64,000 bases of DNA from Acidobacteriota bacterium (GTDB lineage: Bacteria; Acidobacteriota; Blastocatellia; HR10). Both the position numbers and the translations under genes were made by a program. The notes under the pieces are model-generated. The model saw nothing but the letters and a program-made list of their open reading frames with translations. It was not told the origin of the DNA and did not search any database. Numbering within the stretch: position 1 is the first letter of the stretch; every line of letters starts with the position of its first letter. Below, piece after piece: positions 14,075-44,767 of this stretch. The stretch lies in the NCBI GenBank assembly GCA_030550025.1, contig JAUQQC010000003.1, forward strand, positions 101,464-165,463, in the 5' to 3' direction.

Positions 14075-14127
14075 AGCTCCCTCCCTCACTGCCGATCGTC
14101 CGCCAAGCCAAGGCCAGCCCGTGCGGC

Positions 14128-18246: not shown

Positions 18247-18301
18247 ATTCACCCCCTGGCTCGGATGCACCTCCGGAATACGCGCGAGGGAACCCATTCG
18301 C

Positions 18302-21160: not shown

Positions 21161-21242
21161 CCGAAGCAATCTCCACAAGAGCGGCGCCGGATTTCCCGCC
21201 TGCGGTCGGGGGCAGACTCAGAAGTCCGCGCCACTTTACATC

Positions 21243-23161: not shown

Positions 23162-25144
23162 TCAGCGCCGCTCCAGATCATAAAACCGCCACGAGGAGCG
23201 GAAATCCCGCGTGAGCGGCTGCCGGGTGAGAATGGCGCGCACCATCTCGACCGGGATGCGTCCTTCCTTGAGGATGGCGTCGTGGAACGCGCGATTGGTC
23301 ATCTTGCCCGACTCGACCAGCTCGCGATGCAGGGCGCGGAATTGCAATCCCCCGAGCAAGTAGGCCGCCTGGTAGAGCGGGCCGTATTGTCCGCCGAATG
23401 ACCGACGGACTTCCCCTTCGGCATTGGCGCGCTCGTGCCCCACCCGCGTGACGAGAAAATCAATGCATTCCTCCGGCGTCATCTCGCCCAGATGGAACTT
23501 GAGCGAGAAGATGATCCGGGCGCAGCGATGCATCCGCCAGAAGAGCGCCCCGATGCGATCCTCCGGCAATCGGTGGAATCCCAGGTCCCACAGGAGCAGC
23601 TCCCAATAGAGCGCCCAGCCTTCGCCCCAGAAGGGCGTGCTGAAGAGATTACGGTAGGGTTTGTATCGGGCCGTCATGAAGCCCTGCAGATGATGGCCAG
23701 GGATGAGTTCATGAAAGACGGTCGCCCGCGAGAAGTGGCGATTGTTCCCCCGCAGGCTCATCATCTTCGCTTCATGCGACATCGTGTTGGTCGGATAGGA
23801 GACGGTGATCACTTCGCCGCCGGTGAAGAAGGGATTGACGAGTTGTCGTTCGGGCGACATCATCTCCATGCGCCAGGTCTCTTTGGCCACCGGAGGGATC
23901 GTCACCAGGTCACGCTCTTCCAGGAATCGAATGGCCTCCATCGCGAGATCGCGCACGAGTTCCGGCTGCTTGCCGGGTTCGACATAGCGGGTCTTGACAT
24001 ATTCGAGCGCTCGCTTCCAATCCTCTCCGAAGCCCAACTCTCGCGCCGCCTTCTTCATCTCGTTCTCGCACCAGGCCATCTCCTTCTCGGCAATGGCGAT
24101 CAGCTCCTCAGGAGTATACGGGATCATCTCACGAGCCAACTCAACAAGCAGGGCCTCCCGACCGATTGGATCCCCGATGATGTCGCTCGCTTCTCCCGGC
24201 TGAGGACTTGGAGCCCGCACCGTTCCGGGTTGCGGTCGTTGCCCCATAGGCCCACTAGCTCCCCTCCCCATCCCCGGCGAAGGTCCGCTGACTACCACCG
24301 GCGCCTCATCTAATCTCACACCCACGACGCGCTGGGCCAGAAAGTCTATATAACTCCCGAGCGCTTGATCCGCCGATTGATAAGGCTCGCTCACCCACCA
24401 AGTGAATAGCGGATCGTACCCGTTGTAGAAGGCGAACCAGTTCCGCAACGTCGTTCGCAAGTTTTGAAGCGCTTGCAGAGCTCGATTCGCCACCACCCGC
24501 GTGGCCCGGATGGGCGTGATCGCATCCGTCCCACGATCTCGTGGTTGACCATCGGCACGCTCCCCGCGCAATCCGGCCTCCACGGCGCGACGCACATCTT
24601 CGATCTGTCTCCGCATTATGGCTAAACGCTCCGCTACCTGCTCAGGTCGAACCGGCTCCATGCGCCGGCGCGACTCTTCCAATTCGATGATCGTCTTGGC
24701 AAAAGGCAGGAGCGGCTCCATCTCCGCGATTTGCTTGGCCTGAATGTCCAATTGCCGCAGCAAATATTCGAGATGATTCCGGAAGAGGAGGTAGTCCACT
24801 CGGCCATCCATGCTCAAGACCTCGAAATTCACCCCCTCCAACTTCTGCAGCCACTCCGTGTAGAACTTCCGTAAGCGTTCTCGCCGCGTCGGAGAGATCG
24901 GGATGGCGTAGAAGCGATTCAAGCTCCCCAGATCAACGGTGAAGCGCTCGATCAACGGGCGCAGCTCACTTTGTGATGTGTCCAGGTCGTCTCCAATTGA
25001 GGCCGAAGGGCCCGCGCGCTCAGATCGGGCCGGTGCTGAACGAGCGGGACGTTGAAGGCCACTTCCGGCCGCGTCAGCGAGGATACTCCCTTGATGCCAA
25101 AGAACGATGAAGAGAGAAACGACGGCTACAGGCGTTCTCCTCAT
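23162..25144 (-). CDS. DUF885-family secreted metallopeptidase-like protein
   Basis: DUF885 proteins are zinc-peptidase-like and common in Acidobacteriota and Gammaproteobacteria; their substrates are mostly unknown. A signal peptide (MRRTPVAVVSLFIVLWHQGS) starts at ATG 25144, just after GGAGGGGGAAAT. The zinc motif is HELIPGHHLQ at about residue 490, with the third ligand expected in the EGWALYWE segment near 525. FSLKFHLGEMTPEECIDFLV and GGQYGPLYQAAYLLGG are family hallmarks of the C-terminal part. 660 residues. A Pro/Gly/Arg-rich insertion near 300-325 (PSPGMGRGASGPMGQRPQPG) is probably a flexible loop. It follows the M24 relic and precedes the carbohydrate genes on the same strand. Confidence 0.9.
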   Translation of the reverse strand: MRRTPVAVVSLFIVLWHQGSILADAAGSGLQRPARSAPARSERAGPSASIGDDLDTSQSELRPLIERFTVDLGSLNRFYAIPISPTRRERLRKFYTEWLQKLEGVNFEVLSMDGRVDYLLFRNHLEYLLRQLDIQAKQIAEMEPLLPFAKTIIELEESRRRMEPVRPEQVAERLAIMRRQIEDVRRAVEAGLRGERADGQPRDRGTDAITPIRATRVVANRALQALQNLRTTLRNWFAFYNGYDPLFTWWVSEPYQSADQALGSYIDFLAQRVVGVRLDEAPVVVSGPSPGMGRGASGPMGQRPQPGTVRAPSPQPGEASDIIGDPIGREALLVELAREMIPYTPEELIAIAEKEMAWCENEMKKAARELGFGEDWKRALEYVKTRYVEPGKQPELVRDLAMEAIRFLEERDLVTIPPVAKETWRMEMMSPERQLVNPFFTGGEVITVSYPTNTMSHEAKMMSLRGNNRHFSRATVFHELIPGHHLQGFMTARYKPYRNLFSTPFWGEGWALYWELLLWDLGFHRLPEDRIGALFWRMHRCARIIFSLKFHLGEMTPEECIDFLVTRVGHERANAEGEVRRSFGGQYGPLYQAAYLLGGLQFRALHRELVESGKMTNRAFHDAILKEGRIPVEMVRAILTRQPLTRDFRSSWRFYDLERR

Positions 25145-25271
25145 ATTTCCCCCTCCCCCGCTTGAGATGAGGCCCTTCCCGAGCCTCGCACGGCTCTTCT
25201 CCACGCCCGTGCGCCTCTTATCATGGCGTACCCGCCAGGACCAAATCAACCGCGCGACTCCGTCACATCCC

Positions 25272-25952
25272 TCATGATCCCAAGCATCGAAACGCTCGCG
25301 GATGCTTTTGCAAAAGCCCTCCTTCGCGCATCACCCGCTCGATGTCGGAGATCTCCATCATGAACCCGGAGAGCACCTCTGCTCCATATAGAATTCCGTA
25401 CAGTCCCCACTGCCATGAGTTAACTCGTCCATTCACGGAGAACCGCCGCGTCACCTCACAAACGTCGTATCCGACGTCGGGAGAGTGATCCATCAGGACG
25501 AGGTCTCCATCCCGCAATTCACCCGCATTAAGGTGTCCAGCCAGCAAGTCCGTCCCATAGATCGCATCTATACCCGTCAATCGCTTGACCGGATCGGAAT
25601 CTTCAGCCGAAAAGATCATCCCCGCGTTGCGCTCGCACGACTCGTTCCGATGCAGCAGATAAAGAGATGTTCGCTGCATCCGCCCATCGAGAAGAAGGTA
25701 CGCGTTCAGAACCTCAACGCCACAGAGATGATAGAATTCGTTCGATTGGCGAAACCGCACCCACCCGATCGGCACCAGTGCGCCTTGAAGGAGCGCGATC
25801 GCCTCCCGGCTAATCCGCTCGAAAACCCGACGCCGGCGTTCGGCGAACTCCTCCGGTGGGAGATCCGTCGTAAAGGGCGGTCTCCCTTGCGCGCCCGCAC
25901 AGGTCGGCAAAGGACAAAGGAAAGCTACAATCCATCGCCGGTCTTTCCACAC
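25272..25952 (-). pseudogene. decayed M24-family (aminopeptidase P-like) peptidase
   Basis: The 226 residues start at GTG 25952 (GGAAGGGA upstream) with a signal-like segment (IVAFLCPLPTCAGAQG). They match the aminopeptidase P N-domain (FAERRRRVFERI, VRFRQSNEFYHLCGVEV). After DAIYGTDLLAGHL the chain jumps to GDLVLMDHSPDVGYDVCEVTRRFSVNG, which is the first metal-ligand region of the catalytic domain. The piece between, about 150 residues, is missing. So is everything after the first ligands, including the HxxG and final Glu motifs. The ligand expected as Asp in DVTR is Glu here. An intact enzyme has 420-480 residues. The frame is still open, so decay may be recent. It lies first behind the regulated promoter at 26049-26105. 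Confidence 0.75.
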
Positions 25953-26048
25953 AGTCCCTTCCCCCTCGCTAGCGTCCTCGCCTTTCGGAGATCGAGGTGC
26001 CTCTGCCCGCTCCATCCCCTTTCACTCCCTTTCTCCCACGCCCCGCTC

Positions 26049-26105
26049 AGTGTAGAGGGAAAGAGCCGTCACCGTCTTGAACGATCCAAAGGGGGAGTTG
26101 AACGA
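26049..26105 (-). promoter_or_regulatory. activator-type promoter with TCGTTC direct repeats (copy 1)
   Basis: Read on the minus strand, TCGTTC occurs at 26105-26100 and again at 26084-26079, exactly 21 bp apart. The second copy runs into AAGACG (-35, 26078-26073), then 18 bp, then TACACT (-10, 26054-26049). The same arrangement precedes the receptor gene at 36381. The predicted start of transcription is near 26042, about 90 bp ahead of the M24 relic. The weak -35 and -10 hexamers suggest that an activator bound to the repeats is needed. Confidence 0.6.
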
Positions 26106-26254
26106 AATTAGGCCCATCCTTAAGGACGTTCTATAAGTCTGTGCAAGACAGGTCTCGCCCCAAGTGATAGACTTTGTAATGTCTCGCACTTCGAGGCGGA
26201 GTCAAAGGCTATGTCTCGACGAAGGGGGGCATATACTCGGTCAAATCAACTCCT

Positions 26255-26570
26255 GCGGTTTGTCGAAGTGCGTACTGATGGCGAATTCTTATGAGTGAGA
26301 CCAACATCTTCGGGGGCGGGTTCTTACGGGAGTCTCTGAACGCGCAGTGGAATTTGGCGATCAATCAAGCAGCTGGGGTGAACAGCTTCGCCTATCCGGG
26401 AACGCATGAGATTCAGCTTGCAGGTCGAGATGCTCAATGCCTTTCATCCGAGCCTGAACGTTGGGAGTTTAGGCGGGACGATCAGCATTGACTCAACGAG
26501 TTTCGGGCAGACGACGAGCACACTCATCGGGCCGCGCAATATTCAAATCTGCGCGCATATCACGTGGTAG
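26255..26570 (+). pseudogene. relic of an Oar-like TonB-dependent receptor
   Basis: Two fragments of receptor coding sequence remain in different frames. The first (26291-26404) reads SETNIFGGGFLRESLNAQ and LAINQAAGVNSFA, nearly the same as NIFENGFLQEFLNAQ and LAINQAAGVNSFA in the intact receptor at 32608-36381. The second (26406-26570) reads MRFSLQVEMLNAFHPS, then SIDSTSFGQTTSTLIGPRNI, matching the C-terminal strands of the same receptor. About 300 codons between them are gone and the frame has shifted. A possible VEVR match just upstream of 26291 suggests the relic begins near 26255. It lies on the opposite strand to the intact copy. Confidence 0.8.
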
Positions 26571-26711
26571 CGTCTCTGGACACGACCTCCTCGTCGTCAC
26601 GCCCACCGGCTTGGGAGGATGCCGATCCTTCTCGCCCGTCAGATCGCGCATCCTCTCAAGCCCTTTCCGCCGATATCCGAAGGAAATTTTCGGATCAGGA
26701 GGGATGATGCC

Positions 26712-29141
26712 ATGAGACGGGACCGTCAGTGGCTGGGAATAGTCGTGGCGATCGTCTGTCTGCTGTCCTACGCCTCCCCCCTTGTCCGCGCGCAAGGTAC
26801 GCGGGCTGACTACGAACGCGCTTTCGCGTTGCGCGAGCGCCTTGAAGGGTTGGCCCTTCATATCGTGGATAGCGTCGCGTGGATTGAAAACACGTCGCGC
26901 TTCTGGTATCGGCGAACGGTCAAGGGCGGCCACGAATTCGTCCTCGTGGATGCCGAGACGCTCGCGAAGCGACCGGCGTTCGATCACGCGCGATTGGCAG
27001 CTTCGCTCTCGAGAGCAATGGGACGCACCTATACTCCGACGACCTTGCCCTTCTCCGACCTTACCTTCGTGAATCAGGAACGCGCGATTCAATTCACTGT
27101 GGCGGGAGCGACCTGGCACTGCGACCTCACCGATTACGCGTGCCGTCAGATCGAATCGGCCGCTCCCGGTTCCCCCAGAGGGCAAAGCCCCGAAGAGCTG
27201 GAGGAGTATCCCCGCGAGTATGACAATGATGTTCACGATGGAATGGTTATTCTCCCCACACAGGCCCCGTCCCCACAACAGACCCAGCAGACTCGCCGCC
27301 CGCTTCCCTTCGCCCCCATCCAATCGTCCCAAGAGCCTCAAGTGAAACCCTCTCCAGATGGACGATGGGAGGCCTTCATCCGAAACTACAACGTCTTCAT
27401 CCGCCCCAAGGGGAAGGAAGCAGCCATCCCGCTCAGCTACGATGGGTCGGAAGCGGAAGCGTACACATTCGCCTCGATCGCCTGGTCGCCGGATTCGCGG
27501 CGCCTCGTTGCATATCGCGTACGGCAAGGGTATCGCCGCCAGGTCCACTACATCGAATCCTCACCGACCGACCAACTCCAACCGAAGCTCCACACGCGCG
27601 AATACGCGAAGCCGGGCGATGTCCTGGATGTGGCGCACCCCGTCCTCTTCGATGTGGAAGCGCGGAAAGCCATCCCGATTGAGAACAGCCTCTTTCCCAA
27701 CCCGTATAGCCTTTCCAATCCCGTTTGGTGGAAGGACGGCCGAGCCTTCACCTTCGAGTACAATCAACGTGGTCATCAAGTCTACCGCGTGATCGAGGTG
27801 GATGCGGTGACGGGGACGCCGCGCATCCTCATCAACGAAGAGTGCCCGACGTTCTTCTCCTACCGCCCCCTCTCGCCGAACCACCGCGAGACGGGGACCC
27901 GATACCGATATGACGTCCACGACGGGCGAGAGATCATCTGGGCTTCGGAGCGCGATGGGTGGCGCCACCTCTACCTCTACGATGGGCTCACGGGAAAGGT
28001 GAAGAATCAGATCACGAAAGGCCCGTGGGTTGTACGCGGCGTCGTGAAGGTGGACGAGCAGAAGCGCCAGATTTGGTTCCAAGCCAGCGGCATGCGTCCC
28101 GATCAGGACCCGTACTTCATCCACTACTACAGGATCAATTTCGACGGCAGTGGGCTCTTGGCTCTAACCGAAGCTAACGGAGACCACGTGGTGCGGTTCT
28201 CTTCGGACATGAAGTACTACGTGGACCTTTGGTCGCGCGTGGATCATCCGCCGGTTCTGGAGCTTCGGCGCACGGAGGATCGAAGGGTGCTCATGGAAGT
28301 AGAACGCGGAGACATCTCCGAACTGCTCGCGACCGGATGGCGTCTGCCGGAGGTCTTCGTCGCCAAGGGACGCGACGGCGAAACCGATATCTGGGGCATC
28401 CTCATTCGCCCGATGAACTTCGATCCGTCGAAGAAATATCCGGTCATCGAGAACATCTACGCCGGGCCGCAAGGGTCGTTCGTGCCGAAATCGTTCAGCG
28501 TGTACACCCCAATGCGCTCGCTGGCCGAGCTAGGGTTCATCGTCGTGCAGATTGATGGGATGGGGACAGCGAATCGCTCCAAGGCTTTTCATGACGTCGC
28601 CTGGAAGAACCTGCGCGATGCCGGGTTCCCCGACCGCATCCTCTGGCATAAGGCTGTGGCAGCGAAGTATCCATACTACGACCTCACTCGCGTCGGCATC
28701 TACGGGCACTCCGCTGGTGGACAGAACGCGCTCGCCGCCTTATTGTTCCACCCCGATTTTTACAAGGTGGCCGTCTCCTCGTGTGGGTGCCACGACAACC
28801 GCATGGACAAGATCTGGTGGAACGAGCAATGGATGGGGTGGCCCGTCGGGCCGCACTATGTGGAATCCTCGAACGTGGAGAACGCGCACCGACTGCGCGG
28901 GAAAGTCTTACTCATCGTCGGCGAGTTGGATACCAACGTGGATCCGTCCTCCACGATGCAGGTCGTGAACGCGCTCATTAAGGCGAATAAGACGTTCGAC
29001 CTATTGGTCCTCCCAGGCCAAGGGCACACGATGGGTGGAACCTATGGGACGCGGAAGATGTACGACTTCTTCGTTCATCATCTGCTCGGCGTGGAACCAC
29101 CCGAGTGGAACGCCCTCTCGGAGGAGACTCCCCAACAGTGA
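26712..29141 (+). CDS. S9-family prolyl oligopeptidase, dipeptidyl-peptidase IV type
   Basis: The enzyme cleaves short peptides after proline or a similar residue and is exported. ATG 26712 follows AGGAGGG with 8 bp spacing. A signal peptide ([21 protein letters not shown]) is followed by a DPP4-type beta-propeller (about residues 60-540, with [19 protein letters not shown]). The alpha/beta-hydrolase domain comes last. The nucleophile is in [13 protein letters not shown] near residue 665, the Asp in [12 protein letters not shown] near 740, and the His in PGQGHTMGG near 775. 809 residues is normal. A hairpin-forming repeat, ATCCGAA/TTCGGAT, lies at 26676-26696 just before the ribosome binding site. 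It converges on the GH146 gene. Confidence 0.94.
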
Positions 29142-29146
29142 GAGCC

Positions 29147-29186
29147 CGTGGGGGATTCCTGGGCAGAATCCCCCACGAGACCTTTT
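29147..29186. terminator. bidirectional terminator between convergent genes
   Basis: CGTGGGGGATTC at 29147-29158 pairs perfectly with GAATCCCCCACG at 29166-29177 around a 7-base loop. CCTTTT follows on the plus side at 29181-29186. It lies exactly between the ends of the S9 peptidase and GH146 genes, as expected for a terminator shared by both. Confidence 0.7.
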
Positions 29187-29193
29187 GTAGGAA

Positions 29194-31590
29194 TCACTGG
29201 CGCTGTCCCTCTCGTGCGACCGTGCGGACGTCGAAGAGAGCTCCCGCGATGGCGTTCGGATGCGCTTGGAACTTCACGACGATGCGCTCCTTGCCCCGCG
29301 TGAGATGCTCCGGGATCGGATACTCCTTATCGAACAGCTCGGTTGGATGGATTTCCAAACGCTCGGTCGCGATTTTCTCCCCCTCGACGAAGATGTCGAA
29401 GACGCGTGGAGGCCCTTCGCTCCCGCGATACGTGCAGACCAAGAGCACCGGGCGATCTGGCGTGACCTGCAGCTCATAGCTGAACCAGCCGTTGCGCGCC
29501 GCGCGCCAGCGTCTCCCCTCGAAGTATCCCTCGTTCGTGTTCTCCCCCTGAAAACGATGCGCTTGTTCGCTCTGCGGATCACCGAGGTTCACGGCATCAA
29601 TAGTCAACCGCTCGATCTCCCGACGTCGTGCTTCGCGCGCGGCGATCTCCGCCTTCCGCTTCTCCCACTCGGCAGGGGTGTAGACCTTCCAGTAAACCGT
29701 ATATCGCCGATCGTGCAGCTTGTAGAAAGGCGCGAGCGTCACCTCGCGCGGTTGCCCGAGCCCTTCGGTGCGAAACGTCAAAGGCACTCCCGCCACGGGC
29801 TTCACCTTCGCCAGGATGTCCTTCACATCGGTGGTGACGAAAACGGGCACCTCCACCGGTCGCACTCGACCGATGCGCGGAGCGCTCGGACCATAGCGCT
29901 CGGACTCGACCAATCCCTCCGTGCCCAGATCCCCGGCTAAGACGATCGGGCCATAGAGGAGCGCGATCATCGTCGGATCATCCGGCATGGCCTCCATCCG
30001 TAAGCTCATGGGGAATTGGACCTCCACCGTATCGCCCTCGCGCCACTCGCGCTCGAGCGTGATATATGATCCCGGCATCGCTGTGACCGATTCACGCTGA
30101 CCGTTCACGAGGACTTGGACGCCCGATGCCGCCCATCCCGGATATCGAACCTTCAACGCTAATCGAACGGGACGCTCCGCGTGAATGATCAGGCGCGTGC
30201 GGTCCTCTTCGGGGAATCGCGTCCGTTGCTCCACGCGCACGCCCTTTTCGTTCCAACGTACTTCCGACGCGAGGAAGAGCGTCACATAGAGCGAGCGGTC
30301 ATCGCGGAAATAGATGGCCTCCCCATACCGAGCGGGATTCTCTATCCCTGTCCCTACACAGCACCAAAAAGAATTTTCCGGCGTCGAGTATGTCCGAAAC
30401 GCCCCCGGTCGCAACGGCACGTAGTAGCACATCATCCCCGTCGCCGGATCTTGCGATGCCAGAATGTGGTTGAATAGGGCGCGCTCGTAGAAATCCATGT
30501 ACTCGCCCTTGGGCTCCCAACTGAAGAGGTGGCGCGTGAGCTTCAGCATGTTGTACGTGTTGCAGGTCTCGGCCGTCGCCGGCCCCAAGCGGCGCGAGAA
30601 CTGAGAGATTGGGAAGAATCGTTCGCCATCGCTGTGACCGCCGATGACGTACGAGCGATGCAAGGCGACGCGCTGCCAGAAGAAGGTGGCGATGTCGGCA
30701 TACCACTTCTCTCCCGTCAGCTCATATTCCCGCGCGGCGCCGATGATCTTCGGAATCTGCGTGTTCGCGTGAAGCCCATCAAGGGGATCCTCTCCCCGCG
30801 AGAGCGGCTCGAAGAGCCGATGGTGATCGAACAACCGCGCCAAGCGCAAATGCTCCGGATTCCCCGTGACGGCATACAGGTTCGCCAGGACTTCATTCAT
30901 CCCTCCGTACTCGGTCTCCAGCATATTCTGCTGTTGCTCGCGCGTCAGACGGTCCATTCGGAACTTCACCCAATCTGCCATTTTGACGAGCACATCGAGG
31001 GCCTGCGGATTGTCGCAATAGAGGTAGACATCGAGCAACCCCGCCATGATCTTATGAAGCGTGTAATACGGCGCCCACACTCGCTGTCGCGCCTCCACAC
31101 GATCAATGAACTCTTCGGGGAACGCCGACAGGTACCCGCGATTGAACCCGCGACGTTCGAGCGCTTCTTGAATGCGCGCTAACTCCGCCACGATCTGATT
31201 CGCCCGCGCTTTGAATCGCTCATCCCCCGTCTGGGCATACATGAGCGCGCAGGCCGTCAGATAGTGCCCGACCGTGTGCCCGCGTAATTCGACGTCGGGC
31301 GCTTCCCATCCCCCATATGGCTGCGCCGATGACGGAAGCCCCGCATTCACCCGGAAGTTATGCAACAACCGATCCACGTCCAAGCTCAGGATATACCGCT
31401 GAGTCCGCTCCATCGCCTCTCGAAATGGGCCTTCCAGAAGGCGAACGTCGGTCACCTCAAAGGGCGTCACCTTCAGCGGAACTTTATTCGGCACCGTAAT
31501 CTTCCTCCCCTGCGGGAAAGCCCCCACTCCCAGGGGAGCGATCCAGGAACAGAGGAGAAGGAAGATCCAAACCCACCATGCTCGTCTCAT
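29194..31590 (-). CDS. secreted GH146-type beta-L-arabinofuranosidase
   Basis: Members of this DUF1680-related group remove beta-L-arabinofuranose from pectic arabinan. ATG 31590 (GGGGAGG upstream) begins a signal peptide (WWVWIFLLLCSWIAPLGVGA). The barrel starts with FEVTDVRLLEGPF and contains GWEAPDVELRGHTVGHYLTA. Zinc and catalytic residues are seen as the ETC of ATAETCNTYNMLKL near residue 375 and the CC of SFWCCVGTGIENPARYG near 430; the first Cys of the pair is the nucleophile in characterised relatives. A C-terminal beta-domain ends the 798-residue chain. It is the last gene behind the receptor and permease (55 bp from the permease). Confidence 0.9.
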   Translation of the reverse strand: MRRAWWVWIFLLLCSWIAPLGVGAFPQGRKITVPNKVPLKVTPFEVTDVRLLEGPFREAMERTQRYILSLDVDRLLHNFRVNAGLPSSAQPYGGWEAPDVELRGHTVGHYLTACALMYAQTGDERFKARANQIVAELARIQEALERRGFNRGYLSAFPEEFIDRVEARQRVWAPYYTLHKIMAGLLDVYLYCDNPQALDVLVKMADWVKFRMDRLTREQQQNMLETEYGGMNEVLANLYAVTGNPEHLRLARLFDHHRLFEPLSRGEDPLDGLHANTQIPKIIGAAREYELTGEKWYADIATFFWQRVALHRSYVIGGHSDGERFFPISQFSRRLGPATAETCNTYNMLKLTRHLFSWEPKGEYMDFYERALFNHILASQDPATGMMCYYVPLRPGAFRTYSTPENSFWCCVGTGIENPARYGEAIYFRDDRSLYVTLFLASEVRWNEKGVRVEQRTRFPEEDRTRLIIHAERPVRLALKVRYPGWAASGVQVLVNGQRESVTAMPGSYITLEREWREGDTVEVQFPMSLRMEAMPDDPTMIALLYGPIVLAGDLGTEGLVESERYGPSAPRIGRVRPVEVPVFVTTDVKDILAKVKPVAGVPLTFRTEGLGQPREVTLAPFYKLHDRRYTVYWKVYTPAEWEKRKAEIAAREARRREIERLTIDAVNLGDPQSEQAHRFQGENTNEGYFEGRRWRAARNGWFSYELQVTPDRPVLLVCTYRGSEGPPRVFDIFVEGEKIATERLEIHPTELFDKEYPIPEHLTRGKERIVVKFQAHPNAIAGALFDVRTVAREGQRQ

Positions 31591-31644
31591 ATGTTTTTCC
31601 TCCCCGACATTCCGGCGAAGCCTCAACTCCGCCGGAGGATTCCT

Positions 31645-32493
31645 TCAGGCTCCGATCCGAGCCCGGATGTATCGCAAGAGTCCATATACCGGGACCCCCG
31701 CGAGAACGAGGATGAAGCCCAGCCATGTCGTCGCCGTTCGGTGGTGCAGGAGCACGGCCAAAGTTGTTCCCGCCCCGACAATGTAGAGCGCGGGAACGAT
31801 CGGATACCCCCACACGCGATAGGGTCGTTCGCGATCCGGCCACTTCGCGCGCAGCCGGAAGATGCCCAAGATCGTGAGGATGTAGAAGAGCAATGCTGCC
31901 GAGATCACATAGTCCAGCAAGTTGCTGTAGAGGTTTCCATAGGTCCCCGTCTCCGGATGAAACGTGCGCAGTAAGACCAAGGCCGCCGCCCACAATCCTT
32001 GCACAAGCAACGCCCATCCTTCGGAGAGATGCCCTGGCGGGATCAGACACCGATCCTCGGCAATCACCGACCAGAGCACGCCCAGAAAGCGCACGAACGC
32101 CACCGAGACGACCGCGATCATCCCGGTTTGAATGACCAGAAAGAGCGTCCATCCATACAGAAAGCCCCAGAGCGGAGAGCACGCTTCGCGCAGGAAGACG
32201 TACTGCCCACCTGCCCACGGCATCATGGCTGCCCACTCGCCATAGAAGAGAGCCCCGGCCAACGTCAAAAGCCCCGCGATACCCCAGGCCAGAAGCCATC
32301 CTCCGGGACCCCCAATCTGCCGCGCCATATCCGCTGAGACGATGAGAATCCCAGACCCGATCATGATCCCCACGACGAGCAGAGTCGCATCGAAGACACC
32401 AAGCCCCTGGACGAAGTCCCGCGCTCCTTCGCTCGAAGTCACCGACGGGGGAGCCGCCATCCCGCCGTTTGTCTTCCTGAACGAAAGCCTCAT
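31645..32493 (-). pseudogene. APC-superfamily amino acid permease with an internal deletion
   Basis: The ends match LAT/APC permeases. The N-terminal helix motif is LLVVGIMIGSGILIVSADMARQIGG. AGGQYVFLREACSPLWGFLYGW and LVIQTGMIAVVSVAFVRFLG follow. At the other end are YSNLLDYVISAALLFYILTILG and the DRERPYRVWGYPIVPALYI segment. The middle is gone: after VIAEDRCLIPPGHLSEG (about residue 155) the chain goes directly to WALLVQGLWAAALVLL, which normally comes about 190 residues later. The total is 282 residues against 430-480 in the family, so five or six membrane helices are missing while the frame stays open. Start ATG 32493 or 32460. It lies between the receptor and GH146. Confidence 0.75.
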
Positions 32494-32607
32494 GTTGGGG
32501 ATCCCACAATGACATCGGGGGGGGAGCAGATGGAGGAGATTGGGCGATGTTGGAAGCCTCCATGGTCATGAGCGGCACGTCCTCATCCCCCCCGACGCCG
32601 GTGAATC

Positions 32608-35600
32608 TCAGAAACTCAGCTTGAGTCGAATTTGAATCTCCCGTGGCCCTGTGGCTGTCGCCGTCGTCTGCCCAAATGTCGTAGAGAGGATGCTGACGGA
32701 ACCAGCCACACCCCCAACCTCGAAGCTCGGATGGTTGAAAGCATTGAGCGCCGTCACCCAGAGATCGAACTTCACCCGCTCGGTCAACGGGATCTCCTTC
32801 GAGAGGGAGAGGTCGGGTAAGAAGAGGGAGGGCCCATACAAATAGATGAACTGACCAAAGACGCCCGGAGTCATCGGGGGCGCCAGGATCTCCGGATTCG
32901 CCCGTCCATCCGGGCCGATGAGTTTCGGATCCACGAAAAACACCGTGGCGTTCGGCCCCGGCCTCACCGTGAGCATCTTCTGCAGCTCTTTCGCCGTGAG
33001 CCCATTCAAGATGACGCCGGCATCGCGTTGGTTCACCGTGAAGCGATCACTGGAGAGACGGAAAACGCGCCCCGACTGCCACCGGAGAATCCATGATAAC
33101 GTCCATCCGCCGATGATCTTATCCGCGATCGCATTCCCCGTCGCCCAACGTCGTCCCATCCCAAAGGGAAATCCCCAACTCCCGTAGGCCTGAAAGACAT
33201 GACGCAGATCGAACGGCGAGGGCCCCTTATCAAGCCTCCGATTCCGAAGCGTCGTGTAGTTCCGGAACATGGTCGGCGAATCGGCGAAGAGGTCACTCAG
33301 GGACTTGCTGAAGGTGTAGTTGACGACGAAGCTCAGGCCCTGGCTGTACGTGCGGCGCACCTGCAGCTGGAGTCCGTGATAGCTGGAGTAGGAGTAGTCC
33401 GTCATGAGGTTGATCGTCGCTCCGGCCGCAAAGGGATTCGCCTGGAAGAAGTTAACGGGGAATGGCCCCGGACTATCGAACCCCAAGCGCGCACACGCAG
33501 GGAGTAGATTTCCGACCATCCGACAGAGATAGATCGAAGACCCGGCCAGCGCATTGGCGAAAGCCCCGACCTGTCCCTGACGAAGGTAGTTCAAGAACGT
33601 GCCGTTGCTGAATCCCGAAGTCGGCGGCAAAGCCGGCTGCGATCCCCGCGCGCCAAAGGCCGCCTCGAAAATCGGCAGCGGTACCTGTCCCGGCAACCCT
33701 CGATGGGCAAAGCTGTTCACCCCAGCTGCTTGATTGATCGCCAAATTCCGCTGCGCGTTCAGAAACTCCTGCAAAAACCCGTTCTCGAAGATGTTGACTT
33801 CGTTCAAATCGAACCCGCGCCAGATGTGTGTGCCCTTATTCCCCACATATCGCACTTCGATGACCGTATGACGAGCGACCTCCCGCTGCAAACCGAAGGT
33901 CCACGTTTGAATGTACGGCGTCCGAAGCTGCGGCAACATGCTGCTGAATCCGCGCGCGAACGTGTAGTCCGCCTGCCGGAAAGGCGGCGAGAAGCTCTCC
34001 GGGAACGTCGCCAGTGGCGGCGTCGGACTGCTCAGCCGCAACTGCCCGATGGGAAATCCCGGCATCCCCGGATTCGAGAAGAGCGATTGCATCAGCCCAG
34101 GATTCCCGCCAGCGTAGTTGATGAACGTCAGCAGCCCCTCATCGTAGTAGCTCAGCGAATAACTCGCGCGAAGAACGGTCTTTTGCTCTCCCCCCAAAAG
34201 CCTCTGCCAAAATCCCGATTCCACCCGCGGCGACCACGCGAATCCGAAATTCGGCCCCGGATTGACGAAATCTCCCTTGTAAGCACGCGGGCGGAGGAAG
34301 ATCTGCGGGTCCATCGCTCCATCGAGGACACCAGGCTTGAAGAGTTGACGCGAAGGCCCCATGAGATGTTCTACCGTCGGACTCGTGTAAATGCCATGCG
34401 CATCGTGAGTCGCCCCCGAGAACTGCCACCGGAACCCGTAGTTGAACGTGAGCGTCGGCCGATACCGCCACGAATCCTGGAAGTAGAAGCCTCCAACCCG
34501 TTGCCGATCGAGCCGAACGAGCATCGTCAGGTCCTTATATTGCTTCGTCCGGTAGTCCACACCGCGCGTCGCGCTGATGCTCGCCACGCGCCCGGTCAAC
34601 AAGGCGTAGAGGTTCCACGCGTTCGTCAGATCGGTGCTCGAAATCGCCGGTAGCACCGACGGGCTCAACACACTCGTCACCGGATCTCCCGTCGCGATCC
34701 CGACGTTGTACTGCGGAATCCCCGCTCCGATGAAATCGGCATCATACCAGCCGACATGACGGAATGATCCTCCGATGGTCATCGAGTGCGCTCCCCGAAT
34801 GAGCGTGAGGTTATTGTAGAGATTATGCGTGCCATTGGCGCGCGAGATGTTCATCTGATTGCGAATCAAGGGTGGAACGAACGGATAGGCGATGCGCATG
34901 AGCCGACCGTTCACGTAGAACTGATCCGGCCCCTCGCCCACGTTATACTGATCCACATTGTGCTGGAGCCCGTACTTGAACTCATTGAGCGTCCGCGGCG
35001 AGATCGTCCAATTCACCGACGTCGAAGCGATATACCAACTGTTGGTGAACTTGCTCTGCTCTTTGAACTCCGGCCCCGGCCAGGGCCGCGTCCCATCAAT
35101 GACGCGATTGAAGAGGTGCCATGTCCCCGTCCAGGTGAGGTTCGGCGCGATGTGATAGTCGATGCGAGCCGTCGGATAGTGCTGAATCGTATTGGTGCGA
35201 TTGAGCCAGCTCAGCGTGTTCCGAAACAGGTCCAGGCGCGTGATCACCCCATTGCGCCACGTCTCATTCGTGCGCCGGAAGTAGTCGGCCACGATGGGAT
35301 CGAGCTGATCCGGATGCCCATTGGCGCCAGCAATGTGCAGGAGATTGACTGCGCGCTCAACGCCGTCTGTCCCCCGATACCGAAAGATCCCCTGCTGCGC
35401 CTCCGGCGTGAGGATTGTATTGGAGGCCGTGGACTGGCTCGGGATACGCGCTTGTTCGTAGTTCACGAAGAAGAAGAGCTTGTTCCGCCACAGCGGCCCA
35501 CCCAGATTCCCACCGAATTCGTTGAACCGCACTCGCGGCCGAGGTAATCGCCGCGCGTTGTTGAAATAGCTATTGGCATTCAGCGCGTCATTGCGCAGTT

Positions 35601-36381
35601 GGTGGAAGATCCCGCCGTGAAATTCGTTCGATCCGCGCCGCGTGACGAAGCGAATCTGCATCGCCCCTTCGGCGCCGGCGTCGGCCGTTAGCCCGGCCGT
35701 CGAAATCGTTACTTCCTCAATGGCATCGAGCCGAGGTGGAACGGTCGCAAAGAAGCTCGTTCCGCCGCTCTTGAACCCCTGCGAATTGTTGTTGATGCCA
35801 TCCACCATGATGTTGATCGTCGCCCCAGGCATACCATTGTAAGCGCTGAAGCGCCCTCCCCCACCGACCGTCTGGGCTCCCGGCACCAGGAGCGCGAAGT
35901 TCAAGATATTGCGCCCGCTGAGCGGCAATTTCTGAATCGCTTCGTTCCGAACCGTGTTGGAGACCGTATTGGAGGTGATCTCTAAAGCCGGCGTCGCCCC
36001 CTCGACCTGAACCGTCTCAACGACTTCGCCCACCTTCAGATGAACGATCACATCCGTCGTCCGCGCCGATTCCACGACAACCCGACTATAGACGGCCGTC
36101 TGAAACCCCGGTGCCGTCACTACCACCTCATAGGTCCCAAACGGAAGATTCGGGAAGAGAAAGGCCCCCACCTCATTCGTAACGGTCTCGCGAAGGGCTC
36201 CGGTGAGCTGATCCTTGAGTTGTACCTTCGCCCCAGCCACTACTGCCCCTGTCGGATCGAAGACCGTCCCGGAGATGGCCCCCGTCGTCCTCCCCTGTCC
36301 GAAGACAAAGCCGCCTCCTAGGGAGAGCGATAACACGAGAGTTAAAAAGATCACTTCCTTCATCCCAGGTCTTCCCACCAT
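32608..36381 (-). CDS. Oar-like TonB-dependent receptor with carboxypeptidase-regulatory domain
   Basis: An outer-membrane beta-barrel that would import large substrates using TonB energy; in this context arabino-oligosaccharides are the likely cargo, by inference. The 1257 residues comprise a signal peptide (1-28), a carboxypeptidase-regulatory-like domain (about 31-112, GAISGTVFDPTGAVVAGAKV), a plug (about 115-240, IQKLPLSGRNILNFALLVPG), and a barrel ending in RLKLSF with the usual terminal Phe. ATG 36381 has GAGGAGG 7 bp upstream. The promoter with TCGTTC repeats lies at 36433-36488. No SusD-like partner is present. It heads a unit with the damaged permease and GH146. A relic of a very similar gene lies at 26255-26570. 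Confidence 0.93.
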   Translation of the reverse strand: MVGRPGMKEVIFLTLVLSLSLGGGFVFGQGRTTGAISGTVFDPTGAVVAGAKVQLKDQLTGALRETVTNEVGAFLFPNLPFGTYEVVVTAPGFQTAVYSRVVVESARTTDVIVHLKVGEVVETVQVEGATPALEITSNTVSNTVRNEAIQKLPLSGRNILNFALLVPGAQTVGGGGRFSAYNGMPGATINIMVDGINNNSQGFKSGGTSFFATVPPRLDAIEEVTISTAGLTADAGAEGAMQIRFVTRRGSNEFHGGIFHQLRNDALNANSYFNNARRLPRPRVRFNEFGGNLGGPLWRNKLFFFVNYEQARIPSQSTASNTILTPEAQQGIFRYRGTDGVERAVNLLHIAGANGHPDQLDPIVADYFRRTNETWRNGVITRLDLFRNTLSWLNRTNTIQHYPTARIDYHIAPNLTWTGTWHLFNRVIDGTRPWPGPEFKEQSKFTNSWYIASTSVNWTISPRTLNEFKYGLQHNVDQYNVGEGPDQFYVNGRLMRIAYPFVPPLIRNQMNISRANGTHNLYNNLTLIRGAHSMTIGGSFRHVGWYDADFIGAGIPQYNVGIATGDPVTSVLSPSVLPAISSTDLTNAWNLYALLTGRVASISATRGVDYRTKQYKDLTMLVRLDRQRVGGFYFQDSWRYRPTLTFNYGFRWQFSGATHDAHGIYTSPTVEHLMGPSRQLFKPGVLDGAMDPQIFLRPRAYKGDFVNPGPNFGFAWSPRVESGFWQRLLGGEQKTVLRASYSLSYYDEGLLTFINYAGGNPGLMQSLFSNPGMPGFPIGQLRLSSPTPPLATFPESFSPPFRQADYTFARGFSSMLPQLRTPYIQTWTFGLQREVARHTVIEVRYVGNKGTHIWRGFDLNEVNIFENGFLQEFLNAQRNLAINQAAGVNSFAHRGLPGQVPLPIFEAAFGARGSQPALPPTSGFSNGTFLNYLRQGQVGAFANALAGSSIYLCRMVGNLLPACARLGFDSPGPFPVNFFQANPFAAGATINLMTDYSYSSYHGLQLQVRRTYSQGLSFVVNYTFSKSLSDLFADSPTMFRNYTTLRNRRLDKGPSPFDLRHVFQAYGSWGFPFGMGRRWATGNAIADKIIGGWTLSWILRWQSGRVFRLSSDRFTVNQRDAGVILNGLTAKELQKMLTVRPGPNATVFFVDPKLIGPDGRANPEILAPPMTPGVFGQFIYLYGPSLFLPDLSLSKEIPLTERVKFDLWVTALNAFNHPSFEVGGVAGSVSILSTTFGQTTATATGPREIQIRLKLSF

Positions 36382-36432
36382 GGCGGAGCCTCCTCAAATT
36401 TCAAAGTCCTCTCCGCTTCACGCAGGATATTC

Positions 36433-36488
36433 AGTTTAGGCTCCGCACGCCGGTGTGTCTTGAACGATTTAAAGGCGGCATGGAACGA
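36433..36488 (-). promoter_or_regulatory. activator-type promoter with TCGTTC direct repeats (copy 2)
   Basis: On the minus strand, TCGTTC at 36488-36483 and 36467-36462 are 21 bp apart. The second is fused to AAGACA (-35, 36461-36456), then 17 bp, then TAAACT (-10, 36438-36433). The predicted transcript begins near 36426, 45 bp ahead of the receptor start. Over about 40 bp the sequence matches the copy at 26049-26105 in roughly 30 positions. This would make the receptor and the other carbohydrate run one regulon. Confidence 0.65.
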
Positions 36489-36605
36489 GATTAAGTCAGG
36501 CTGGGAATGCATCGGAACTTCCGGCGCGCCATCGCGAACAATTCACATTTGGAGCGAGCTACGGGCGAAGATCGGGAGCGTTGCCCCCTTCTCACCAAAG
36601 AGGTT

Positions 36606-37133
36606 CTATCCACGCGAAGGCCGAGACGGCGAAAGGACTTCTTCCAATCGGGGGAAGAGGACTTGCTCTTCGCGATGAACGTGTTCGACAATGACTTCGA
36701 TGATCCCCTCGCCAATGGCAATCACTTGCTGAACGGTCTCGCGCTTCCCCCCCTCGCGCTTGAGTCGCTGCAACGCCCGTTGAAGTTGCCGACATTCCTT
36801 CTCCAAGCCATTATCGCCGGCCAAGATCGCCCGGATGTCCTGCTGGCGCGAGAGTCCACTCTTCTCCACCAGCGGATGCAGGGTCTCGCGCTCCCGCAAC
36901 ATGTGCGGCTGCACGTGATCCGCGAGAAAGGCACGGAGTGATTCCAAGACGGAAATCACAGCGGCAGCCTCCGCTCGCTTCACCGAGAGCCGTGCGAGTG
37001 ATCGATCCAAACGCCGCAGTTCTTTCAACAAGGCCCGATGCTCTTCACGCAAGGTCTCAATCCCCGTATGAGGCTCCTCAGCGATCCCACGATCGCTAGA
37101 GACACTCAAACGCCCGCCCTTTCGCTCAGCCAT
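36606..37133 (-). CDS. hemerythrin-like HHE-domain protein
   Basis: Hemerythrin domains bind a di-iron centre and sense or carry oxygen or nitric oxide; a general role in iron or stress handling is likely here. The 175 residues contain the spaced histidine/carboxylate pattern of a four-helix bundle: HTGIETLREEHRALL near 20-35, FLADHVQPHMLRERETLHPL near 75-95, and VEHVHREEQVLFPRLEEVL near 145-163. The first 20 residues are polar and have no export signal, so it is cytoplasmic. ATG 37133 follows AGGGAA. A TATAAT -10 lies 40 bp upstream. It has no evident functional tie to the receptor gene downstream of it. Confidence 0.85.
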   Translation of the reverse strand: MAERKGGRLSVSSDRGIAEEPHTGIETLREEHRALLKELRRLDRSLARLSVKRAEAAAVISVLESLRAFLADHVQPHMLRERETLHPLVEKSGLSRQQDIRAILAGDNGLEKECRQLQRALQRLKREGGKRETVQQVIAIGEGIIEVIVEHVHREEQVLFPRLEEVLSPSRPSRG

Positions 37134-37169
37134 GTCATTTTCCCTCCGAAGCCTCGCTCTCACGCGCTG

Positions 37170-37791: not shown

Positions 37792-39216
37792 TCAAAGGCC
37801 GTATTGTTTCTTCTTCTTGTGGACGTGTACGCGCGTCGTCCCCAGCAACTCCCCCGCTCGAGTTAGGTTGTTCCCGGATTGCTCCAGCGCCTTCCGGATG
37901 AGGAAGATCTCAAGTGCCTCCTTAGCCTCGTACCACTTGGGCAGCCGCGTCCCGTCCACGATGAATCGCTCTTCCTCGATCCGAATCCGACCTTCGTCCA
38001 TCTTCCGCCGGATCCGCTCAAACTCAGCACGGAACCAAGCATGAGGATACGTAGCGAGAAGCTGATCCGCCCGTGCGAGCCACTCGCGTGCCTTCATGGG
38101 CTGGACCGCGAGCATCAGCTCGGCCAGATAGAGACAAGCGGGCGTCTCGATCTCCCGGCTCTTCAACTTCTCGCCGATCTCCAGCGCTTGCCGAAGGGCT
38201 TTCTCGCTCTCGTAATATCGGCCCTTCAAAAGGGCAACGCGTCCAAGCTGAACGAGGGCACGACCTTTCTCAAACGGATTCGTAGCCAACTCGGCATATT
38301 CTGACGCTTGCCTACTATAGAGATGCGCTTTTTCAAGGTCTCCACACGCGACATACAACTCGGCAAACGATGTCAGGAATGTACTAGCACTCACCACATC
38401 ACCAATCCTCTGAGCAAGCTCAAGGCTTTCTTTCAATAGCAGCTCAGCCTCCTTATATCGTTCAAGTTGGATCAAAGCCAAAGCGATATTGTTGCTCGCG
38501 TGCTCAAGGTCATGAAAAATGCCAATTTTCTCAAATATGCCCTTAGCCCTTTGAAGCACCGCTATGGCCTTATGAAGACACCCCAGGTAGAGATGAAGGC
38601 CGCCAAGGCTGTTCAAAACCAAACCATAATACCGCTGGCCTTCGCTTACCTTCAAGATCCTTGCGGCTTCCTCAAAAAGTTCCTTCGCGGGATCAAGCTG
38701 TCCTTCATAAAGCCTTATCGCTCCCAGATTGAACAACACGAGCCCACGTAGGAATTCGGCACGAGAGTCAGCGTGATCTTTGCTCAACTCGATGGAGCGA
38801 TTGAGGAGTCTCTCCGCCTCCTCGAACCGGGCGCGTCGACGCTCCAAGCGTCCGAGGTTATAGAGGGCGACGGCCTGACGGAACGTCTCGCCGAGGAATT
38901 TATAAAAGTGCAGGGCTATATGGAAGTGCTCTTCAGCCTCTTCGTAGCGGTAGAGCCAGTAACTCAGCTCCCCACGCGCCATGGCGTAGCGGGCGGCGAC
39001 TTCAACCTCCCGGGCTTCCTGGGCGACTTCATCGAGCAAACGCTCGGCCTCATGCAGGTGCGAGAAGTAGATCTCCACTTCGGCGCGAAGCACGTGAACA
39101 ATGGGTGAGTCTTCACGAATCTCCCGCAACGCCTTCTCGGCTGTCGTGAACCGGCCAGCATCAATGAGATCAGCAATGACGGATGCGGTGACCTGAAGCT
39201 CTCGGACTCGTGGCAT
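37792..39216 (-). CDS. TPR-repeat protein with C-terminal Fis-type HTH (paralogue 1)
   Basis: Likely a cytoplasmic transcription regulator. About 400 residues of TPR-like helices (from RFTTAEKALREIREDSPIVH to LYLAELMLAVQPMKAREWL) are followed by a Fis-type HTH: FLIRKALEQSGNNLTRAGELLGTTRVHVHK at residues 440-470. That C-terminal domain is the kind found at the end of NtrC proteins, but there is no receiver and no AAA+ domain. ATG 39216 is preceded by GGAGGGG. The 474 residues align over their whole length with the protein at 43233-44660. Its promoter region carries GGAAAAT direct repeats 22 bp apart. Targets are unknown. The direct-repeat promoters of the carbohydrate units are candidates only. 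Confidence 0.85.
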   Translation of the reverse strand: MPRVRELQVTASVIADLIDAGRFTTAEKALREIREDSPIVHVLRAEVEIYFSHLHEAERLLDEVAQEAREVEVAARYAMARGELSYWLYRYEEAEEHFHIALHFYKFLGETFRQAVALYNLGRLERRRARFEEAERLLNRSIELSKDHADSRAEFLRGLVLFNLGAIRLYEGQLDPAKELFEEAARILKVSEGQRYYGLVLNSLGGLHLYLGCLHKAIAVLQRAKGIFEKIGIFHDLEHASNNIALALIQLERYKEAELLLKESLELAQRIGDVVSASTFLTSFAELYVACGDLEKAHLYSRQASEYAELATNPFEKGRALVQLGRVALLKGRYYESEKALRQALEIGEKLKSREIETPACLYLAELMLAVQPMKAREWLARADQLLATYPHAWFRAEFERIRRKMDEGRIRIEEERFIVDGTRLPKWYEAKEALEIFLIRKALEQSGNNLTRAGELLGTTRVHVHKKKKQYGL

Positions 39217-39279
39217 CGGTATGCCCCTCCCTCGCCAGAAGACAGTCTCCTCAAATACCATGCCGTAATGGCGTCGCTA

Positions 39280-43232: not shown

Positions 43233-44660
43233 TCACAGATTGAACTGCCGACGCAGATTATGCACATGCACCTTCGTGATCCCTAGCAATTCCCCGGCCT
43301 TCGTGAGATTCCCCCCGGCTTGCCGAAGCGCGTTCTTGAGCAGGAAACGCTCCAGCGTCTCGCGCGCCACGTACCAATTGGGAAGGAAGTTGCCGTCGAA
43401 GATGAGCTTGTTGTCGGGCGTCAGCTTGATGCGCTCGCTCGTCGCCCGTTGCGCGACGCGCTCGATCTCGCGTTCGATCTGCGGATCGGAGAATGGATGA
43501 AGCAACTCCTGCGCGCGCGCGATCAACTCCTGGGCTCGCATAGGGGAGACAGCGTAACAAGCTTCCGCCCAATACAGGCAGGCGAGGCCTTCCAGTTTTC
43601 GATCGTCCAGACCTCGGGCGATCTCGCGAGCTCGCGAGAGGGTCTGTTCGGCCGCCTCGTGATCGCGCCGTCGCGCGGCGACGCGTCCGAGGAGGATCTG
43701 CGCCTCCGCTCGCAAGACGTCATCTCGCAGGGTCTCGGCATGCTCAAGGGCCGCGCGAGCCGCATGTTCTGCGCGCGCGACATCGTTTCGCTCGAGGTAG
43801 ATCTCGGCGAGCGTCTTGAACATCCGCCCGACTCCCCGCCCATGCCCGAGGCGCTGCAACGCATCCAAGCTCTCGTGTACTGCGTGTTCCGCTTCGTCGA
43901 AGCGCCCCATCCGAACGAGAGCGGCAGCCAGTGTAGGAGTCACTTCGATCAGCGGATCGCCGATCATATATCGGATCAGGATGCGCTGTGCCTCCCCTAG
44001 CTTCTCGACCGCATCCGCACATTCTCCGCATGAGGCGAGCAAAGCGCCGAGCGCGCCCAAAGCGGAAGCGTAATATCGGCCACGTTCCTCATCGAGGAGC
44101 CGCACGCTGGAGTACAGCGAGGCGCGGGCTTCCTCGATCCGTCCCGTTTGAAGGCGCCGCGCGCCCAAGGCGTATTCGAGCACGCCGAGGGCGAAATCGC
44201 CCCGCGCCGTCTCCTCTTCGGTCAGGAGTGCCTTCGCTTGTTCCCACAGCGCTTCCGCTTCTTCTCCGTCCCCGCGCTTGCACTTCGTCACTCCCAAATA
44301 ATACAGCCCGCGAGCCAGATGACAACGAGCGCGCAGGAGCTTGTAGAGGCAGCACGCCCCTTCCAAAATCTCTCCCGCTAACTCCCACTGTTCCTGCTCC
44401 AGATGGCACTGGCCGAGAGCGAGAAGGTAACGCGAGAGCGAACGCGCTCCCAATCTCCAAGGATCAACCTGCGCGAGGCGTTCCCGGGCCGACTCGAGGC
44501 GACCGAAGTAGAGGTTCACTTCGGCCTCCAAAATCGCTACGAGGGGATCGGCGTTCGTCCTGAGGTGGGGAAGCATCCGATCCGCTTCTTCAAATCTTCC
44601 CGCGTCAATCGCCTCCATGAGCTTCACGACCAATGCAGACTCTTCCCTGGTCGCTTTCAT
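43233..44660 (-). CDS. TPR-repeat protein with C-terminal Fis-type HTH (paralogue 2)
   Basis: Like the protein at 37792-39216, it has TPR-like helices over about 410 residues (RFEEADRMLPHLRTNADPLV through LYWAEACYAVSPMRAQELI) and a Fis-type HTH at the end: FLLKNALRQAGGNLTKAGELLGITKVHVHN, with the linker NKLIFDGNFLPNWYVARE shared nearly word for word. 475 residues; no receiver or AAA+ domain. ATG 44660 follows GGGGGAGGGGGG. Its promoter has perfect 11-bp repeats (TTTTCACAAAC twice, 20 bp apart). It precedes an SDR gene. I infer that it is a regulator, perhaps of itself. The two paralogues lie within 6 kb. Confidence 0.85.
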   Translation of the reverse strand: MKATREESALVVKLMEAIDAGRFEEADRMLPHLRTNADPLVAILEAEVNLYFGRLESARERLAQVDPWRLGARSLSRYLLALGQCHLEQEQWELAGEILEGACCLYKLLRARCHLARGLYYLGVTKCKRGDGEEAEALWEQAKALLTEEETARGDFALGVLEYALGARRLQTGRIEEARASLYSSVRLLDEERGRYYASALGALGALLASCGECADAVEKLGEAQRILIRYMIGDPLIEVTPTLAAALVRMGRFDEAEHAVHESLDALQRLGHGRGVGRMFKTLAEIYLERNDVARAEHAARAALEHAETLRDDVLRAEAQILLGRVAARRRDHEAAEQTLSRAREIARGLDDRKLEGLACLYWAEACYAVSPMRAQELIARAQELLHPFSDPQIEREIERVAQRATSERIKLTPDNKLIFDGNFLPNWYVARETLERFLLKNALRQAGGNLTKAGELLGITKVHVHNLRRQFNL

Positions 44661-44767
44661 ACCCCCCTCCCCCGATGAGGTTCGCCACGTGCCTCCTGCC
44701 CCACGCACATCCGGCACGACCTCCTGGCCAGACCACGTCCCAGGTTCGCGGCCTCTTTCGGGTACCG

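Follow-up and report, generated by a model that had tools for sequence, protein, structure and literature searches.

A putative tandem AraC-type operator shared by TonB-type receptor, peptidase, and arabinofuranosidase units of Blastocatellia, probably marking a hydroxyproline-glycoprotein regulon

RESULTS

Two damaged gene units headed by similar promoters

The window, i.e., the whole stretch of 64,000 nucleotides from an Acidobacteriota bacterium (Blastocatellia; HR10) analyzed here, carries two minus-strand units and a divergent peptidase gene with the following features.

11657-14254, minus strand: GH127-type enzyme; its best NCBIfam model is aceric acid hydrolase (461 bits, below the cut-off of 950)
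14128-15792, minus strand: GH51-type alpha-L-arabinofuranosidase (Alpha-L-AF_C)
15872-16900, minus strand: C-terminal fragment of receptor C (1082 aa in the relative G001)
16822-18324, minus strand: GH31 gene, cut at a junction at 16961
18302-21178, minus strand: DUF5695 protein
23162-25249, minus strand: DUF885 protein
25272-26015, minus strand: M24 aminopeptidase-P-like gene, shortened to its N-terminal part; first ORF behind site 1
26049-26054, minus strand: -10 hexamer TACACT of the M24/DUF885 unit, 18 bp from AAGACG
26073-26112, minus strand: site 1, 40-bp operator CCTAATTTCGTTCAA-N6-CTTTGGATCGTTCAAGACG (52.7 bits); the -35 hexamer AAGACG (26073-26078) ends its proximal half
26619-29141, plus strand: DPPIV-type S9 peptidase, divergent from site 1
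29194-31626, minus strand: GH127/GH146-type enzyme with DUF6805
31645-32493, minus strand: amino-acid permease, shortened to 282 aa (509 aa in the relative G003)
32608-36381, minus strand: receptor A, TonB-type (CarboxypepD_reg and OMP_b-brl_4), 1257 aa; first gene behind site 2
36433-36438, minus strand: -10 hexamer TAAACT of the receptor unit, 17 bp from AAGACA
36456-36495, minus strand: site 2, 40-bp operator CTTAATCTCGTTCCA-N6-CTTTAAATCGTTCAAGACA (52.9 bits); the -35 hexamer AAGACA (36456-36461) ends its proximal half

The M24, amino-acid permease, GH31, and receptor C genes are all shorter than their counterparts in relatives, and both units are thus damaged. Hemerythrin-domain genes adjoin the receptor A/GH146 unit both in the window (36606-37163, minus strand) and in Pyrinomonas methylaliphatogenes (L067, 1779-2507).

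Architecture of the repeated element

A preliminary description of this DNA had placed a repeated element at 26049-26105 and 36433-36488 (minus strand), with about 30 of 40 bases alike in otherwise unrelated intergenic regions, and both copies are indeed present there. Sites 1 and 2 are identical at 31 of 40 bases, whereas their neighboring 40-base blocks match at chance level only (6, 10, 12, 8, 14, and 6 of 40 identical). The -35 AAGAC(A/G) and -10 TA(A/C)ACT hexamers that it had named, with spacers of 17 to 18 bp, were found at both promoters. The repeat is real, but the conserved block is longer than had been noted, starting with CTTAAT or CCTAAT ahead of the distal TCGTTC and including a further conserved CTT ahead of the proximal half. 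The window has two exact matches to TCGTTC-N15-TCGTTCAAGAC; with up to three mismatches allowed, the count is three against 0.16 expected, and none of 100 shuffles reached three. The third match (33779-33810, plus strand) falls within the receptor gene coordinates.

Alignment of 19 sites, including that of the Blastocatellia MAG nzgw74 and six others from relatives, resolved the operator into two bipartite half-sites, C(C/T)TAATTTCGTTCAA and CTTTAGATCGTTCAAGACA, of 15 and 19 bases, respectively, with 4 to 6 bases between them and a direct-repeat period of 19 to 21 bp. At both window sites, the proximal half lies at a sigma-70 -35 hexamer followed by a -10 hexamer 17 to 18 bp further on, and the same layout was seen by eye in several, not all, of the sites linked to the AraC branch described below. 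Consistently with the class II geometry proposed earlier, the element looks like an AraC-type class II operator, whose proximal copy extends into a weak -35 (AAGACA). One could also ascribe the likeness of the promoters solely to descent from duplicated receptor genes, since receptors A and B are ~43% identical. We give this explanation hardly any credence, as site 1 heads a nonhomologous unit, the flanks of the two window sites agree no better than chance, and the gap between half-sites varies while both halves stay constant.

An inverted partial copy of the operator with 13-bp spacing occupies positions 26118-26150 (plus strand), has its own AAGACA-N17-TAGACT, and points to the S9 gene. Three relatives (G001, G003, and G004) have a comparable stretch upstream of the site. 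This copy might be a second operator or an element serving the S9 gene.

Distribution of the operator

In the genome to which the window belongs (G000; 29 contigs, 98.72% complete), the pattern with up to three mismatches gave 42 matches, two of them exact and one with a single mismatch, against 12 for the reversed pattern. A sequence model built from 12 sites, including all three of this genome, scored these three at 59.3, 55.9, and 50.2 bits, with the next match at 16.2 bits. Such a drop indicates that the genome has three clear sites and no large set. The third one ends 66 bases upstream of a gene on contig C3 for a 1295-aa CarboxypepD_reg/TonB-type receptor. The preliminary expectation that a genome-wide scan would find more sites before receptor or glycosidase genes thus held on a small scale, with one additional site, before a receptor.

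Relatives were scanned with the pattern (up to three mismatches, 58 genomes) and then with the 12-site model (162 genomes of the class). The other five genomes of the family (G001 to G005) carry sites, as does P. methylaliphatogenes K22 (G023). The model found a match in 56 of the 162 genomes at an E value of 0.1 but in only eight at 1e-4 or below: the window's genome, four congeners, one genome of the same family, G023, and G033. The G033 site (E value, 9e-5) lacks the distal TTAAT and was kept out of the model. A looser exact pattern, searched across 84,980 species, returned 12 stretches, nine of them from HR08, HR10, one uncultured Blastocatellia MAG, and P. methylaliphatogenes K22, and one from nzgw74. 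The remaining two, in a Clostridia and a Spirochaetes MAG, were dismissed as chance, about two random matches being the estimated expectation. Low-scoring places in G015, G037, and G018 were also dropped, their promoter context being unconvincing.

Strong sites are followed, among others, by genes for M24 or DUF885 proteins, for TonB-type receptors from several subfamilies, and, in one case, for a product with a sub-threshold amidohydrolase match; sites of the relatives also head genes for a 4-hydroxyproline epimerase and a DPPIV-type S9 peptidase. In P. methylaliphatogenes K22, they stand before the genes of receptor A (L067), receptor B (L068), and the epimerase (L186), and the AraC2 regulator gene described below is at L186, 1617-2441. 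At L061 (2928-2966, minus strand), L109 (840-878, plus strand), and L110 (5555-5593, minus strand), a second operator-like copy containing GTGCAAGAC was noticed in divergent orientation. The genes behind these copies are homologous (309 to 326 codons), and the one scanned, that of L110, gave no Pfam match.

Association of the sites with one AraC branch

The nzgw74 site is divergent from an AraC-family gene whose branch is referred to here as AraC2. Two AraC2 proteins were scanned; HTH_18 scored 80.2 and 84.7 bits (cut-off, 33.6), denoting a two-helix-turn-helix C-terminal domain, and AraC_binding exceeded its cut-off in one of the two. A protein search returned 98 AraC2 matches in 51 of the 162 genomes. 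To 30 of these 98 loci, we applied a matrix trained on 12 sites only, none of them on contig positions near an HTH_18 match, with 1,180 dinucleotide-resampled sequences as the null. Half of the loci (15/30) carry a site above the 99th percentile of the null, 12 of these above its maximum, and the proportion was 12/26 without the four query genes. All 15 sites lie within ~370 bp of the AraC2 gene, either divergent from it or positioned on the same strand at the gene end or beyond. The same matrix detected no site at 20 loci of another AraC branch (AraC1) or at nine LytTR loci. Outside the family of the window's genome and G023, 8 of 62 sequence-model matches (E value up to 0.1) are within 100 bp of an AraC2 protein-search match, against ~0.008 such coincidences expected if genomes average 4.7 Mb. 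The G033 site adjoins an AraC2 gene, 42 bp away.

The AraC2 tree contains a supported clade made up of G003, G005, G090, G040, G023, G052, G022, and G049, and seven of these eight have an adjacent site. The G003 AraC2 gene has no site within 1.5 kb; in the stretch that was read, the closest one is ~6.5 kb away. The other 15 of the 30 AraC2 loci had no significant site in the matrix scan, and members of the branch elsewhere face beta-lactamase-like, amidohydrolase, S41, and M3 genes; hence, the DNA word belongs to the branch and not to hydroxyproline regulators alone. Collectively, the sites go with one AraC branch in the relatives, which makes AraC2 the candidate regulator. A LytTR regulator was rejected, as none of the seven site-bearing genomes G000 to G005 and G023 has a LytTR gene and the nine LytTR loci lack the site; G033, with one weaker site, has five LytTR genes.

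Hydroxyproline and arabinose genes around the sites of relatives

An AraC-type regulator adjoins hydroxyproline genes in G001, G003, G005, G023, G049, and G090, and the operator precedes the epimerase gene in G005, G023, and G049. The AraC2-adjacent sites of G005 and G023 lie before a gene of the proline racemase family whose best models are 4-hydroxyproline epimerase, with scores of 436.8 to 445.2 bits against cut-offs of 442 and 450; a single score of the four exceeds its cut-off. The G049 locus reads, in order, a DPPIV-type S9 peptidase gene behind one site, the AraC2 gene, and a second site followed by the epimerase, two oxidase, and DHDPS-family genes. In G023, one side has a GH51 gene 61% identical to that of the window; the other has a site followed by genes for the epimerase, oxidases, DHDPS-family and aldehyde dehydrogenase proteins, an S9 peptidase 66% identical to the one divergent from site 1, and a DUF5695 protein. 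In G022, one site heads a TonB receptor gene, and on the opposite side a weaker site precedes, by ~0.8 kb, a GH31 gene accompanied by GH51-like and DUF5695 genes. These second sites of G022 (18.2) and G049 (19.3) only slightly exceed the highest null score, 17.4, a value obtained with shorter loci. In G052, on a cut contig, a site precedes a receptor-like gene, and G090 has the hydroxyproline genes with a weak site (13.4 bits). Finally, G003 joins both themes: receptor C with its site is followed by araD, ribulokinase, symporter, possible isomerase, and GntR genes and then by AraC2, epimerase, and oxidase genes. The araD, ribulokinase, and symporter genes likewise adjoin receptor C in G004, and in G001 receptor B sits between.

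This arabinose gene set, together with the GH51, GH127/146, and GH31 enzymes of the window units and the proximity of the window GH127 to the aceric acid hydrolase model, could speak for an arabinose or pectin regulon, with L-arabinose or an arabino-oligosaccharide as the signal for the AraC-type protein and a merely secondary link to hydroxyproline. We consider this unlikely. The regulator adjoins the epimerase gene in all six relatives named above, and the operator stands before that gene in three of them; the G090 site is weaker. Peptidase genes recur, and G005 and G023 have no close ribulokinase (27 to 28% identity).

Probable loss of the regulator and of part of the island

The protein search (E value up to 1e-30) gave no AraC2 match in the window's genome, G002, or G004, and neither of the two HTH_18 matches in the window's genome is AraC2. 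No epimerase match was found in G000, G002, or G004, and no ribulokinase match in G000 or G002 (E limit, 1e-20 in both cases); G004, which is 73% complete, has the ribulokinase. Compared with G001, window position 16961 is a sharp junction at which the first part of GH31 is joined to the last part of receptor C. The G001 contig C49 ends ~31 bases beyond the equivalent point. G002 has two operators only 462 bases apart (L063, 2994-3495), with the intervening receptor and GH146 genes for the most part lost. The regulator and catabolic genes were probably removed from the window's genome by a deletion with its junction at 16961, so that the window operators may lack their original regulator. Taken with the shortened genes and the G002 remnant, the junction makes the two-unit regulon best seen as the leftover of a larger island.

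On balance, we lean slightly toward the sites being relics of an ancestral regulon, now without a regulator of their own, a reading compatible with the regulon proposed below. It agrees with the missing AraC2, epimerase, and ribulokinase matches in both G000 and G002, with the junction and the four shortened window genes, and with the 63.0-bit site that G002 retains, well preserved, before a receptor gene whose similarity stops after ~30 codons. Against it, the preservation of all three sites is roughly on a par with that in AraC2-bearing genomes, which would make the loss recent, and the regulator may lie in a stretch missing from the assembly, the G001 AraC2 gene itself being cut by a contig end.

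Intact sites in a genome with no AraC2 match may instead be served by a different regulator, and two are present there: a TPR protein with a Fis-type helix-turn-helix (37792-39261) and the AraC1 of contig C24. We judge either to be a poor candidate. The TPR/Fis protein is broken in G003, and G023, a genome with two strong sites, gave no match to it (E value up to 1e-10). AraC1 gave no match in G005 (E value up to 1e-25) and, at the same limit, matched in 70 of the 162 genomes, the majority of which lack strong sites; none of the 20 AraC1 loci carried a site. The window holds two such TPR proteins with a C-terminal Fis-type motif, at 37792-39261 (minus strand, 1.3 kb upstream of site 2) and 43233-44777 (minus strand), and a third copy is on contig C3. 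TPR/Fis matches occur in G000 to G005, as well as in G006 and G008 of the order.

DISCUSSION

A putative regulon for arabinosylated, hydroxyproline-rich glycoproteins

We regard it as probable that the operators define one AraC-activated regulon for hydroxyproline-rich, arabinosylated glycoproteins, with hydroxyproline or its product as the inducer. The activator would be an AraC-family protein with an N-terminal sensor domain, of which two subunits would bind in tandem, 19 to 21 bp apart, each reading CTTAA and CGTTCAA with its two helix-turn-helix motifs. The proximal subunit is predicted to contact the weak -35 and to recruit the sigma-70 polymerase in the class II manner. Because the AraC2 members nearest to the motif adjoin 4-hydroxyproline catabolic genes in relatives, hydroxyproline itself or one of its products is the most likely inducer. 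TonB receptors would import glycopeptides, which prolyl-type peptidases and arabinofuranosidases would digest, and in relatives the regulon would add hydroxyproline and L-arabinose catabolic genes. Combined, this gene set is what a cell would need for the uptake and digestion of such glycoproteins, the likely substrate. The hydroxyproline of extensin-type proteins bears L-arabinofuranose via beta bonds that are handled by the GH127 enzyme HypBA1, according to the part of the source consulted (PMC7263609). The nearest model of the window GH127, aceric acid hydrolase (below cut-off), would suit pectin and is a point against the glycoprotein reading.

The two units had originally been proposed to form one carbohydrate regulon. 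The common operator stands, and the regulon would include both units, but it is probably not simply a carbohydrate regulon, given that the regulator branch fitting the sites is associated with peptidases and hydroxyproline catabolism. The matching AraC gene was not found in the window's genome, so that joint regulation of the two units there today is no more than a possibility. In its fullest form, the scheme has one hydroxyproline-responsive AraC regulator running the whole glycoprotein program of some Blastocatellia, from receptors to hydroxyproline and arabinose catabolism, and a deletion in the window species has taken away the regulator together with the catabolic core but spared operators, receptors, and glycosidases; we put forward this extended version tentatively, at just short of even chances.

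Some TonB-type receptors of Acidobacteriota thereby gain an operator, a candidate regulator, and a substrate open to testing. If the proposal is true, the uptake of an amino acid, hydroxyproline, and of a sugar, arabinose, would be under one switch, and a cultured host would be on offer in P. methylaliphatogenes K22, which is described, in the portion of the source seen, as growing on arabinose, peptone, and casamino acids (PMC4644332). The decayed window copy would show a utilization island losing its control gene and core while the operators stay.

Comparison with known systems

A full-text literature search found no account of a hydroxyproline/AraC regulon that combines TonB-dependent receptors with arabinofuranosidases or of one in Acidobacteria. 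In the class II operators araI1-I2 of AraC and Pm of XylS, bipartite half-sites stand in tandem at a period of 21 bp, and the proximal half-site reaches into the -35 of a weak promoter. The operators described here have the same tandem bipartite layout, also with the proximal half running into the -35, but differ in sequence, regulator branch, and targets; their period is 19 to 21 bp, and binding is predicted. LytTR-type sites are GTT-containing direct repeats ~21 bp apart next to the -35, a similar repeat geometry, but G000 to G005 and G023 are without a LytTR gene.

As regards regulator role, LhpR is reported, in the sections of the source available to us, as the AraC-family activator of the hydroxyproline genes of Pseudomonas aeruginosa (PMC6608401). 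AraC2 would likewise be an AraC-family regulator linked with hydroxyproline catabolism, a likeness in role and not by sequence comparison, and the LhpR-type trait of a regulator gene beside the catabolic genes is seen in the six relatives listed above. Unlike what those sections describe for LhpR, the operators here also precede TonB receptors, peptidases, and arabinofuranosidase units. The HypAA/HypBA1/HypBA2 system of Bifidobacterium longum for Hyp-linked arabino-oligosaccharides shares GH127 with the window units, whose arabinofuranosidases would likewise act on hydroxyproline-rich glycoproteins; it uses ABC import, and the excerpts consulted describe neither a TonB receptor nor a hydroxyproline operon (PMC7263609). 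For Latescibacteria, extensin degradation has been predicted and GH127 proposed for hydroxyproline-linked arabinose, a similar role of this enzyme, with no regulator or operator described in the passages seen (PMC4454575).
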